36,898 nt of DNA, taken from contig JAKSHU010000002.1 of NCBI GenBank assembly GCA_024399175.1, positions 1 to 36,898 of the forward strand, written 5' to 3'. The first letter of the stretch is position 1, and every line of letters begins with the position of its first letter. The DNA is from an archaeon. Lineage in GTDB: Archaea; Thermoplasmatota; Thermoplasmata; Methanomassiliicoccales; Methanomethylophilaceae. Of this stretch, positions 24,821 through 28,898 are shown one piece after another. A model generated the notes under the pieces. That model worked only from the letters and a program-made list of their open reading frames with translations, had not been told where the DNA came from and did no database searches. The position numbers were made by a program, and so were the translations under genes.

Positions 24821-25474
24821 TCAGAACTTCTTGAAGTCCATCGAGTAGAGGAGGTACTCCAGGGTGTAGGACTCGGTGTGTCCCTCGTCCTTGGAACCAG
24901 TCTCGAATGACTCGTTTATCTGGTAACAGACCTTGTCGTCCTTTCCGACGAATACAAACAATTGGAAGGTGATACCTTTGGAATGTACGGTCCAGTTGCT
25001 TCCGTCGAGAGGGTGGGGACCCCATCTGTCCATTATGTCGGGCTTGGGGGCCATCAGGTTGTTCACCCTGCTGACATCAGGATTGTCGATGATCTCCCCG
25101 GTCCTGCGGTCCACCACGTAGGTGGAAGTGCGGGTCGTCTCCTTTCCATCCTCTGTGAGACTGGTGGTGACCTTGTAGGTGTAGGTGCCCGCGTCGGCGG
25201 CGATGACCTCGACGGTCCTGGTGCCAGTGACGGAGAGCGTCCTGCTGTCCTGCTGCTGTCCGTCCGAGTAGGTGGCGAGGCGGTCCTCCCCTGTGGCGGT
25301 CATCACATACACGGTACCCACACCGACATCCCTGTCGAACTGCAGGCTGATGTCGCCGAGAGGATAGATGGTCTCGTGCGAGGGCGCGTGATGAGTCAGC
25401 GTGGCGACGGACAATCCTGCGACGGCGACGATGGTCACCGCGATGACTGCATATATGGTGACATTCTGATTCAT
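24821..25474 (-). CDS. Membrane-anchored extracellular protein, unknown function
   Basis: The protein has 217 residues. One N-terminal helix (TIYAVIAVTIVAVAGLSVAT, residues 6-25) works as a signal anchor or signal peptide; the rest is beta-rich and polar. A middle part reads TGTRTVEVIAADAGTYTYKV, then VVDRRTGEIIDNPD, like small bacterial and archaeal DUF-type extracellular domains. I cannot name it. A TATA (TTTTTATAAT, about 25499-25509) predicts a start just upstream of the ATG. A strong hairpin (25551-25581) separates it from the secreted gene upstream, so it has its own promoter. Confidence 0.7.
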   Translation of the reverse strand: MNQNVTIYAVIAVTIVAVAGLSVATLTHHAPSHETIYPLGDISLQFDRDVGVGTVYVMTATGEDRLATYSDGQQQDSRTLSVTGTRTVEVIAADAGTYTYKVTTSLTEDGKETTRTSTYVVDRRTGEIIDNPDVSRVNNLMAPKPDIMDRWGPHPLDGSNWTVHSKGITFQLFVFVGKDDKVCYQINESFETGSKDEGHTESYTLEYLLYSMDFKKF

Positions 25475-25550
25475 TTCAATCGCATTAGATTCTACATTGA
25501 ATTATAAAAATAAACTGAAGACAGAGTGAAGACACTCCGTATAGGGATGA

Positions 25551-25592: not shown

Positions 25593-26204
25593 TTAAGAAG
25601 AAGAGACAATCTCTGCAGCCTTAAGAGTCAAGTTGAATGCAATAGAGGTTTCAAGAGACTCCTGGAAGGTCTGGAAATCAGCCGCAGAAATTTTCACCAT
25701 TGGCTGAGCAAAACCAGTAACCTTGAGAACTACTGCGTAGACAGATCCAATCTCAAGTTCTGCGGTTTTCTGACCAGTCATATCATTACCATCAATGGTA
25801 AGCTCATATGCATACTTGGTTGAAGCATCTCCGGTAAGGTTTGCACTGAAAGTCATAAGTCCACTGACTGCATCCTTACCAACAGAGGTTACTTTCACAT
25901 ATTTTGTGATAGTGCATTCTTCAGGAGCTACAGTGTAAGTGATGATTCCCTTGTCGTTGTAAGACTGAACATCATAAGTGATGTCAGCAGTAATTTCAGC
26001 CTCATCGAGAGTCTGCGCCTGTGCATCACTGTACATGTGGTACACGACTGCCTGATCTTTTTCAGAAAAAGCACCATTGCTAGTGTATTCCGAAGAGTAT
26101 GCAAATCCTGCACCAGTAAGTGAAACGGCACAAAGTAACAGAACCACGAGCGGAATCAAGTATTTCTTCTTGGATCCCGGCTGATCCATATACAAATCGG
26201 TCAT
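25593..26204 (-). CDS. Secreted TasA/camelysin-like protein (copy B)
   Basis: The protein has 203 residues. After MTDLYMDQPGSKKK comes the hydrophobic segment YLIPLVVLLLCAVSLTGAGF, then AYSSEYTSNGAFSEKDQAVV, and beta-strand-rich sequence to the end. The layout (short basic start, hydrophobic core, A-Y-S-S followed by a Thr/Asn-Gly strand) is that of TasA/camelysin-type surface fibre proteins, though the link is by pattern only. Its signal peptide is almost that of copy A at 26812, but the mature parts differ strongly. It is more A/T-rich than its neighbours. The ribosome-binding site is AAGGATGTGA, and promoter and leader are shared with copy A. Confidence 0.75.
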   Translation of the reverse strand: MTDLYMDQPGSKKKYLIPLVVLLLCAVSLTGAGFAYSSEYTSNGAFSEKDQAVVYHMYSDAQAQTLDEAEITADITYDVQSYNDKGIITYTVAPEECTITKYVKVTSVGKDAVSGLMTFSANLTGDASTKYAYELTIDGNDMTGQKTAELEIGSVYAVVLKVTGFAQPMVKISAADFQTFQESLETSIAFNLTLKAAEIVSSS

Positions 26205-26348
26205 TTATTTCACATCCTTTTTTGAGACATTATCAAACTACTCAAATCCAAAGATTTGTCTCCCGAGCAAGATATATGCCTTGAAGTCAGAAAGAGGAGG
26301 TATCAGACTCCACTTCTAACAAGTCTTCACATTCAAAGTATATAAAAG
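26205..26348 (-). promoter_or_regulatory. Promoter and conserved 5' leader of copy B
   Basis: TATA (TTTTATATACT on the minus strand, about 26338-26348) predicts a transcript start near 26316. The roughly 110-base leader aligns with the copy A leader at about 80% by eye. Hairpin 1 is GGAG/CTCC (plus-strand 26296-26299/26308-26311) with loop UCUGAUAC in the RNA. Hairpin 2 is CAAATC/GATTTG (26243-26248/26253-26258) with a UUUG loop. Further upstream, GTGTCGTCA is shared with copy A. Confidence 0.6.
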
Positions 26349-26349
26349 A

Positions 26350-26760
26350 AATGACGACACTTTGCAGACACACTTACTAATCTTGACTTGGACAGTTTGA
26401 TTTTGTGGATACTGTTCAGTTTCAGATGAAGTGTGTATGAATAGTACATTTTAGCAAATTTTTAGAAAACGCTGGATGTCCCCCAATGGACAGTTGGCCC
26501 ATTCCCATAGCCAACGGATCACAAGACCCAGAATATCAGATTGATAATGCCTGTTTCTGGTAAAAAAAAATTGCACTGAAATATTTCATACTGAAACGCA
26601 AGATGAGATACACCCTCTATGGAAAATCGAGGGAATCAATCACAAAGGAAATCAAATTCAAGACCCGAACACACAACATCCAGCTATTACTGGAGGAAAG
26701 TTTGTTAAGATTCTAGAATTACCTCAAAACCCTGTTCGTCAATCAATTCCATTGACAATA
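26350..26760. other. A/T-rich gap without a gene
   Basis: The block from 26391 to 26760 is clearly lower in GC than the rest of the window and I see no open frame or RNA that I can support. An A9 run lies near 26561-26569. It could be the decayed remains of a former gene or a mutation-prone spacer between the two related secreted-protein genes. Confidence 0.5.
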
Positions 26761-26765
26761 ATCTC

Positions 26766-26788
26766 AAAAAAGGGCCCCCAGAAGGGGG
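26766..26788 (-). terminator. Intrinsic terminator of copy A
   Basis: CCCCC (26775-26779) and GGGGG (26784-26788) form a stem with an AGAA loop. On the leftward strand this is followed by CCC and T6 (plus-strand A-run 26766-26771), the classic hairpin plus T-run, 24 bases past the stop. Confidence 0.75.
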
Positions 26789-26811
26789 TTAAAAAGTTTT
26801 GATTGACGAGA

Positions 26812-27417
26812 TTATGCGGTAATCTCGGTTGCAGTGAAAGCAACCTTGAAGCTGACTGCAGTACCGAGTCCTGTCTTCCAGGTAGCATATTCGTCAGCAG
26901 TCATCTCCTCGAGGGCTTCGGGATCGGTGACACTGACGGTAATGGTGATGGTGTTTGATCCGATGACGGCGTTAGCACCAGCATCGGAGGTGATTTCATT
27001 CTCACCGATCTTCATGGTGATGGTGTAGGGCCCATTGTCGGAGACAACTGCCTTGAGCTTAACAGGTCCGGCAAGAGTAGTGGTACCCACATTGGTGATG
27101 TTGACGTACTTAGTGATGGGTGCAACTTCTTCGAGTTTTGCAGTGTAGGTAGCATTGCCAGCCATATCAACGACATTGGAATCAACGTCATAGTTGACGG
27201 TGAATACAATAGTCGAAACGGCAGTTGCAGTCTCTTCGCTGTCATTGAAGTGAATAAGAATCGCATCATCACCCTGGTTGATGGTTCCAGTGGTATTCAG
27301 AGTCGAACTGTATGCGTATGCCGCTCCAGTGAGCGCGACACCGCAGAGCAGGAGAACGACGAGGGGAACCAGGTACTTCTTCCTGTTTCCGTTGTTGTTC
27401 ATGGTCATGTCGGTCAT
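26812..27417 (-). CDS. Secreted TasA/camelysin-like protein (copy A)
   Basis: The protein has 201 residues. MTDMTMNNNGNRKK is followed by YLVPLVVLLLCGVALTGAAY, then AYSSTLNTTGTINQGDDAIL and a beta-rich body (ITKYVNITNVGTTTLAG...). Strand-forming Thr, Val and Ile are very common and Cys is absent outside the signal peptide, as in fibre-forming surface proteins. The GTG nine bases upstream would also be in frame, but the ATG at 27417 follows AAAGGATGTGA with good spacing and matches copy B. It shares promoter, leader and signal peptide with copy B but little of the mature sequence. No sortase or archaeal cell-wall anchor is visible. Confidence 0.77.
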   Translation of the reverse strand: MTDMTMNNNGNRKKYLVPLVVLLLCGVALTGAAYAYSSTLNTTGTINQGDDAILIHFNDSEETATAVSTIVFTVNYDVDSNVVDMAGNATYTAKLEEVAPITKYVNITNVGTTTLAGPVKLKAVVSDNGPYTITMKIGENEITSDAGANAVIGSNTITITVSVTDPEALEEMTADEYATWKTGLGTAVSFKVAFTATEITA

Positions 27418-27595
27418 TTGTTTCACATCCTTTTGTGTGTGATGAGGATCATCATCGAACCGCTCAAACCCGAAGATTTGTCTCCCGGGCCCGACATATG
27501 TCCTGAAGTCAGGAAGAGGAGGTATCAGACTCCGCTTCTTGCTGATATGGTCCTTGCGTTCTAGATATTTAAAGAACGTGACGACACGTTGCAGA
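27418..27595 (-). promoter_or_regulatory. Promoter and conserved 5' leader of copy A
   Basis: TATA (CTTTAAATAT, about 27564-27574) predicts a start near 27543. The leader of about 125 bases opens with GAAG-C-GGAG paired with CTCC-T-CTTC around loop UCUGAUAC (plus 27518-27533 for the core). A second stem, CAAATC/GGTTTG, closes a UUCG loop (plus 27465-27480). In copy B the same stem is kept by CAAATC/GATTTG, a wobble changed to a Watson-Crick pair. Upstream, ACGTG-TCGT-CACGT (27577-27590 region) is an inverted repeat partly kept in copy B. Confidence 0.62.
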
Positions 27596-27667
27596 CAACG
27601 AGGAATCCGTTGAAAAACAGTGAAAAATCGTTTGGAAATCCTGCCGATTCCGGCAGGATATTCTTGT

Positions 27668-28027
27668 TCAATATACGAAAGCGTCCTCGTCCCCGAAGAT
27701 CGTCAGGGATCCCTTCCTCAGGTCCTCCTCGGATATCTCCTCGGGGGCTATGCCCGTAATCTCGATCAAATCTAGAAGATAGTCCCTCGCCACGTCGCTC
27801 GCGGCGCCGTCCATCTCCCTCATGGATCCGTATGCCATGTCGGCGATGATGCAGGCCTCCCCGGGATTCTCCCCGAACATCTCCATCACCTTTCCGAACA
27901 GCACGGCGGTGTCCCTGCGAATCAGGTACTCGTCCTCATCGGTCGCACACGGATACACGGTGTCGATGAACTCGTTGATGCATCCCTTGATCAGGACGAT
28001 CCTTTCCTCTGCCGAACGTTCGCTCAT
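27668..28027 (-). CDS. Hypothetical acidic protein, 119 residues
   Basis: I do not recognise a family. It is helical and acidic, with many Glu and Asp (for example EEISEEDLRKGSL near the C-terminus) and no membrane span. The ATG at 28027 lies about 24 bases after a TATA (GGTTATATCC), consistent with leaderless mRNA. It stands between the secreted-protein pair and the candidate small RNA. Confidence 0.6.
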   Translation of the reverse strand: MSERSAEERIVLIKGCINEFIDTVYPCATDEDEYLIRRDTAVLFGKVMEMFGENPGEACIIADMAYGSMREMDGAASDVARDYLLDLIEITGIAPEEISEEDLRKGSLTIFGDEDAFVY

Positions 28028-28239
28028 GCTTCCATATTACCTATAGAAAGGATATAACCGTTCTGCAGATGTGAGCCAGATGGATCGGTTCCGCATCCCA
28101 TCAATAAATCGATGATTCCGCGATTTAACGGCCATTTATTCAACTAATGTCTTCAAAATGTCTACTTTTCTTTATATACTATAAGTTACAAACAGTAAAC
28201 AAGACAGAACATTTATATCCTCAGAGAGACGATATGAAA

Positions 28240-28318
28240 TCCACAGGTCCCCTATCGGTCGGGGATCCACATCCGTCGCGGGTGGAGGAGTATCAGGTCT
28301 CCGCCCGCGGATTTTTCC
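28240..28318 (+). ncRNA. Candidate small RNA with two hairpins and T-run
   Basis: TATA (ATTTATATCC, 28211-28220) predicts a start near 28240. Hairpin 1 is GGTCCCC (28246-28252) with GGGGATC (28261-28267). Hairpin 2 is CGCGGGTGGAG (28277-28287) with CTCCGCCCGCG (28299-28309), 11 bp with one G-U, loop GAGTATCAGGT. TTTTT follows at 28312-28316, a terminator shape. The loop of hairpin 2 is complementary to the hairpin 1 loop of both secreted-protein leaders. A second TATA at about 28169-28177 could start a longer transcript. A 36-codon open frame from 28234 crosses the region but looks unlike protein. The rest of the 28028-28451 gap shows only promoters. Confidence 0.55.
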
Positions 28319-28451
28319 CACTCCTTCACCACTGCGCAGAGTAACTGCACTCCTTCTCTTTTATCCCCGTTCCCGTCAAGCACATCTCCATGGTGACGAC
28401 AACCCATACCAGAAGGAACGGCGAAAGAAGGAACATCAGGAGGTCCCAGCG

Positions 28452-28898
28452 ATGGGCGACCGCATCGTGATCGACGTCACGGACGGAAGGAGCCGCACAC
28501 CCTCGTTCTACGGGCACTGGTGCGGACTCAGGGCCGTGAAGGTGATGAACGACCTGGTAAGGGAGGGATGCGACAACGGCATCCACAGCCTGATGTGCAA
28601 CTTCATCACCGAGGTCATGCAGAACAGGAGACAGAGGTACTCCTACTACCTCTACAACCACGGCGAAACCGAGGGAGCCGCCGACTGGGACAACTTCACC
28701 TGGACCATGGACGTGAGGACCCAGACGTGGACGACCACCGACCCGGCGTTCTCGGGAAGGACCATCTCGATGGACGAGGCCGACCAATATGTGAAGAAGA
28801 TAAGACCCTGCCTCTACAGGGAGTGCAGGTGCGAGGAGTACGGATCCGCCGGATGCGCACTGAGGTTCTGCGAGCTGCAGGAGGAGGGCGGAAGCTGA
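28452..28898 (+). CDS. Hypothetical protein with Cys-rich C-terminus
   Basis: The protein has 148 residues. It begins MGDRIVIDVTDGRSRTPSFY then GHWCGLRAVKVMND, and ends with CLYRECRCEEYGSAGCALRF then C. The six C-terminal Cys could bind metal or form disulfides. No signal peptide or membrane span is visible, which favours metal binding in the cytoplasm. The start is set by a strong AGGAGGT seven bases upstream. The family is unknown to me. Confidence 0.65.
   Translation: MGDRIVIDVTDGRSRTPSFYGHWCGLRAVKVMNDLVREGCDNGIHSLMCNFITEVMQNRRQRYSYYLYNHGETEGAADWDNFTWTMDVRTQTWTTTDPAFSGRTISMDEADQYVKKIRPCLYRECRCEEYGSAGCALRFCELQEEGGS

Follow-up and report, generated by a model that had tools for sequence, protein, structure and literature searches.

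A candidate small RNA sharing a tandem promoter element with two secreted-protein genes, and its possible loop-to-loop contact with their leaders, in a Methanomethylophilaceae archaeon

Bacterial antisense pairs such as ColE1 RNAI/RNAII meet through complementary apical loops of about 7-8 bases, and ColE1-type RNAs are encoded opposite their target, with which they share long complementarity. In Archaea, small RNAs with identified targets are few. The closest precedent for the locus described here is sRNA154 of Methanosarcina mazei, an intergenic RNA whose own promoter probably contains a regulon operator, a potential site for the nitrogen repressor NrpRI (PMC3177094); two of its loops have been proposed to act on target mRNAs by binding them (PMC5867862). 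The preliminary description of the present DNA took a trans-acting archaeal form of loop-based control to be new. For a trans-acting archaeal RNA which reaches its targets through loops, sRNA154 (PMC5867862) is already a precedent in part; of the kissing contact itself no archaeal case was found in the open-access literature searched, this being only part of the whole literature.

The window is the whole stretch analysed, 36,898 nucleotides of contig JAKSHU010000002.1. McrA was not found in the 82%-complete genome, for which reason we do not term the organism a methanogen; an archaeosine synthase-like domain set is present, and the promoter style is archaeal. Two paralogous secreted-type genes of the window are preceded by leaders of the same build, and a third secreted-type gene is almost without one:

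25503-25534 (minus strand): tandem TGTC element and TATA box of the third secreted-type gene (24821-25474, almost without leader)
25593-26204 (minus strand): secreted-type protein of unknown family, with a signal-peptide-like N-terminus and no Pfam family above the cut-off
26228-26288 (minus strand): structured core of leader 1, copy 1 (covariation; model match)
26291-26316 (minus strand): 5'-terminal hairpin of leader 1, with loop UCUGAUAC at 26300-26307 (fold and accessibility)
26339-26346 (minus strand): TATA box of leader 1, predicted start near 26317
26353-26370 (minus strand): tandem TGTC element of leader 1 (pattern matches)
26812-27417 (minus strand): secreted-type protein, paralogue of 25593-26204, with a signal-peptide-like N-terminus
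27450-27510 (minus strand): structured core of leader 2, copy 2 (covariation; model match)
27513-27538 (minus strand): 5'-terminal hairpin of leader 2, with loop UCUGAUAC at 27522-27529 (fold and accessibility)
27566-27573 (minus strand): TATA box of leader 2, predicted start near 27543
27580-27597 (minus strand): tandem TGTC element of leader 2 (pattern matches)

Folding agreed with the preliminary description that both leaders start, at the predicted mRNA 5' end, with a hairpin of loop UCUGAUAC. Between the two paralogous units this 30-nt hairpin block is the best conserved part (93% identical, with two differences, neither of them in the loop), while identity is 79% in the promoter element, 40% in the spacer from TATA box to start and 49% over most of the coding sequence. 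The excess of the hairpin block over spacer and coding sequence suggests that the loop is constrained or has been recently homogenised. The loop had been described as constant while stems and flanks drifted; its constancy and the drift of the flanks stand, and the stems hardly differ. Part of the similarity between the leaders may stem from recent duplication or gene conversion. A search with the leader DNA gave zero matches in other public genomes or viral contigs, the window's own genome possibly lying outside the searched set, and an AlphaFold model for the secreted protein was unusable (mean pLDDT 44).

Downstream of the 5' hairpin, both leaders contain a 61-nt core, of which a third copy occurs, once, in a related genome (G014). 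In a consensus fold of the three sequences, 93% of the pairs in its two helices are kept and six pairs are changed on both sides, a signal which is destroyed by sliding the partners as a control. For three sequences, this covariation is good but not final evidence of a conserved fold. A covariance model retrieved three credible core copies only among 147 genomes of the order (26228-26288 and 27450-27510 on the minus strand, and G014:C1:658683-658743, corresponding to L003 1501-1561), and in the leaders of G011 and of other homologues no credible match was found. An unpaired CGGGAGA is conserved within the core, which features compensatory changes and has no Rfam match. A widespread riboswitch was considered as the identity of the leaders and rejected on these same grounds, the missing Rfam match and the three copies in the order.

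A fourth promoter of this type lies on the opposite strand, upstream of the candidate small RNA:

28148-28165 (plus strand): tandem TGTC promoter element of the candidate small RNA, an exact TGTCTnCAnnnTGTCnnC match which also fits the half-site+TATA and tandem+TATA patterns
28171-28178 (plus strand): TATA box of the candidate small RNA, TTTATATA, at the element spacing of the leader promoters; predicted start near 28201
28201-28316 (plus strand): candidate small RNA, predicted extent, with the promoter upstream and a hairpin and T-run at its end
28276-28310 (plus strand): terminal hairpin of the candidate RNA, with a nine-base loop AGUAUCAGG at 28289-28297, then T5 at 28312-28316 (fold, hairpin list and sequence)
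28359-28366 (plus strand): separate TATA-like box of gene 28452-28898, found by eye, with a comparable box in several homologues

The RNA had initially been placed from 28240; since the TATA box carrying the shared element is that at 28171-28178, transcription probably starts near 28201 instead. Likewise, the fold gives the 28276-28310 hairpin a stem of 13 bp where 11 bp had been reported; the sequences and coordinates given at that stage were otherwise correct as read from the DNA. The genes flanking the locus both begin inside the interval and point outward, so the plus-strand hairpin and its T5 terminate neither of them and fit an internal transcript. A simple terminator scan, with a limit on loop length which this hairpin exceeds, did not list it. 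The element and TATA box (28148-28178) are predicted to form a promoter of its own, apart from the downstream gene, as is found for trans-encoded archaeal small RNAs. These features support 28201-28316 as a predicted separate plus-strand transcription unit, probably non-coding, which shares its promoter element with both leaders, and we infer from them that the locus is transcribed. No homologue of the small RNA or of its hairpin was found in the 101 other genomes of the family searched, which does not disqualify it from the small RNA class, because known examples are narrow in range. At the gathering score, Rfam returned only a tRNA elsewhere in the window, leaving the candidate locus and the leaders unmatched, and over the region 26190-28460, with E up to 5, it returned nothing credible.

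The shared element, TGTCnnC-n4-TGTC, places two TGTC cores, at a distance of 11 bp, immediately before the TATA box, and in all four window promoters the first TGTC lies 23-26 bp from that box, a spacing common to the leaders and the RNA locus. It is rare: in the 1.57-Mb assembly the TGTCTnCAnnnTGTCnnC form is matched exactly at five sites, of which the window holds four, and its reversed form, used as a control, at none. Four of the five promoters, those of both leaders included, precede proteins with a signal-peptide-like N-terminus, the background for which is about 20% of ORFs; the fifth precedes the candidate RNA, which makes the small-RNA locus the sole one of the five in the genome with no such protein following. 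The half-site+TATA form matches three times in this genome, once at each leader and once at the candidate RNA, and twice more in 13 other genomes of the genus, both times before homologous secreted-protein genes, while the looser tandem+TATA form finds five promoters in this genome. Since the window promoters supplied the patterns, matches within the window are no test of them, and it is the matches elsewhere which serve as one. Most of the genus matches inspected outside the window (those of G012 and G013 left out) precede genes with a signal-peptide-like N-terminus, examples being a long secreted-type protein of this genome (C175) and a Listeria-Bacteroides-repeat protein of G021; one match in G022 precedes a membrane protein. 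On these pattern and model searches, which underlie all the genome-wide statements, the element is a candidate mark of a surface-protein regulon across the genus, standing mostly before secreted or surface protein genes. The same tandem element at all three loci, two leaders and small RNA, corresponds to the mode of sRNA154, in which a regulator site is common to the RNA and its targets.

The tandem element was also seen upstream of a TATA box in L129, L131, L132, L137, L139, L140 and L144. A run of TGTCTAC repeats with an 11-bp period, at about 1830-1890 of L105 (G024) upstream of a 542-residue ORF, resembles the element and is not adjacent to a TATA box.

Eight loop bases can pair as originally proposed, seven by Watson-Crick pairs and one by G-U, in accessible apical loops; the eight pairs and the unpaired probabilities of the pairing stretches (0.77-0.97; singly 0.96, 0.97 and 0.77) are those of complementary loops capable of kissing, and the 8-bp helix amounts to -8.1 kcal/mol. 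The accompanying caution that seven to eight matching bases may arise by chance was well founded. Among 184 hairpins, taken from stretches counted as intergenic, some of which are probably coding sequence, 73 of about 16,000 hairpin pairs match over at least 7 loop bases, G-U included; the loop match alone is therefore not significant window-wide, and it gains weight only with a partner transcript picked by other evidence. An antisense match reaching into the stems was rejected as proof, gapped alignment scoring several unrelated places higher. Pairing was then compared over 118-nt tiles, in the choice of which loops played no part. The candidate's tile has the best accessible pairing with both leaders among the 616 window tiles (-7.9 kcal/mol), an energy reached in 0 of 300 shuffles and equalled or beaten by 3 of 1282 tiles from other contigs. 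The loop match thus beats about 99.7% of comparable tiles, with a tail probability of roughly 0.002-0.005 before allowing for the selection of the finding by this very match. No good pairing of the candidate RNA was found with the other co-regulated leaders tested.

We favour an explanation in which about 28201-28316 would be a free-standing small RNA gene, switched on jointly with the two secreted-protein genes via the tandem TGTC element upstream of their TATA boxes. Its terminal hairpin would present GUAUCAGG for pairing with UCUGAUAC in the hairpin found at the very 5' end of each leader. A contact at the 5' end would be separated from the ribosome site by more than 80 nt, and we infer, as to direction and mechanism, that mRNA stability or leader folding would be affected more readily than the ribosome would be blocked directly; co-induction would be compatible with stabilisation or with feed-forward tuning. 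We rate the action of a co-induced small RNA on the 5' ends of both mRNAs, loop to loop, at slightly less than an even prospect. The fuller account, in which the regulon with the tandem TGTC element has its own trans-acting small RNA kissing the 5' hairpins of two paralogous mRNAs, upstream of a new structured core, is offered more tentatively. The evidence is stronger for the co-regulated, probably non-coding unit than for the kissing contact.

The alternative which survives best accepts the co-regulation as real and the loop match as chance, with 5' hairpins which protect mRNA ends and a promoter at 28148 which drives an unrelated small transcript or has been left over from a lost secreted-protein gene; we hold this to be a serious possibility, though not a likely one. 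Matches of at least 7 loop bases are common, as counted above, and 5' hairpins are likewise present in the homologues of G014, G019 and G021, where both the stems and the loops differ. In G014 the leader core follows a related promoter and a 5' hairpin with a different loop, and is itself followed only by a short stretch resembling the C-terminal end of the secreted protein, an apparent remnant, so that a decayed locus retains leader and promoter. Chance accounts less well for a loop which is unchanged between paralogues with drifted spacers and coding parts, or for the coincidence of the best pairing tile with a co-regulated promoter, about 1 in 300 to 600; behind the 28148 promoter, moreover, no leader core or gene remnant was found.

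No relative with both partners, small RNA and leader loop, was found, which weighs against the favoured reading, as do the different 5' loops of the relatives. G014 was considered as a covariation partner and set aside, its gene being an apparent remnant and a scan of the surrounding 20 kb yielding no convincing partner for its 5' loop. Its orphan leader (L003, about 1420-1660), with promoter, 5' hairpin and core, is apparently what a deletion left behind.

It is unlikely that the shared sequence is instead a protein site, either a GGAG-N8-CTCC DNA palindrome near the starts or a protein-bound RNA hairpin. All three loci carry an exact GGAG-N8-CTCC, a gapped pattern built from the three finds nothing else in the genome, and in the leaders the palindrome lies just after the start, where archaeal repressor sites are commonly located. 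At the small-RNA locus, however, it lies about 85 nt downstream of the start, and relatives keep a 5' hairpin in which the stem sequences differ, which favours an RNA structure over a fixed DNA site. Such changed-stem hairpins are compatible both with a kissing partner and with a simple 5' stabiliser.

Least probable is that the 28148 promoter serves protein expression, from a 36-codon ORF (28234-28344) or, through a long 5' leader, from gene 28452. The short ORF is open and the gene lies downstream on the same strand, but the hairpin and T5 fall inside the former and upstream of the latter, and a signal-peptide-like N-terminus, which the other regulon members of this genome possess, is lacking in both products. 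Gene 28452 also has its own TATA-like box; several of its homologues, read by eye, feature a similar box together with a short ORF upstream, and in their near upstream region there is no tandem element.

Gene 28452-28898 (plus strand) encodes a 148-residue protein of unknown family, which is present in two copies in some relatives and adjoins an undecaprenyl-phosphate translocase-like gene here; the short upstream ORF overlaps or adjoins several of its homologues.

Should the proposed contact be real, the locus would amount to a small and testable pair, complete with a predicted regulon element, and would illustrate a way for an archaeon to tune its cell-surface proteins after transcription. 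Even with kissing by chance, the tandem promoter element and the covarying core are useful leads.

Compared with the ColE1 type, the candidate RNA is encoded elsewhere, at about 0.7-2 kb from the leaders and with no overlap, and would act on two mRNAs. It would resemble sRNA162 of Methanosarcina mazei as a trans-acting archaeal RNA with stem-loops; sRNA162 employs a single-stranded linker and masks the ribosome site (PMC3510493), whereas the candidate RNA would act loop to loop at the 5' end. With sRNA132 of Haloferax volcanii it would share a separate promoter, occurrence in one genus only and accumulation together with its targets, which for sRNA132 are phosphate-transport operons; the portions of that report available to us (PMC6560208) describe no loop pairing or shared promoter element. 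Finally, sRNA154 is highly conserved in Methanosarcina and concerns nitrogen genes, whereas the candidate RNA is without a homologue in the genomes searched and its function is predicted; in the available portions of PMC3177094 and PMC5867862 a loop-to-loop contact is not stated for sRNA154, and it is this contact which is proposed for the candidate RNA.
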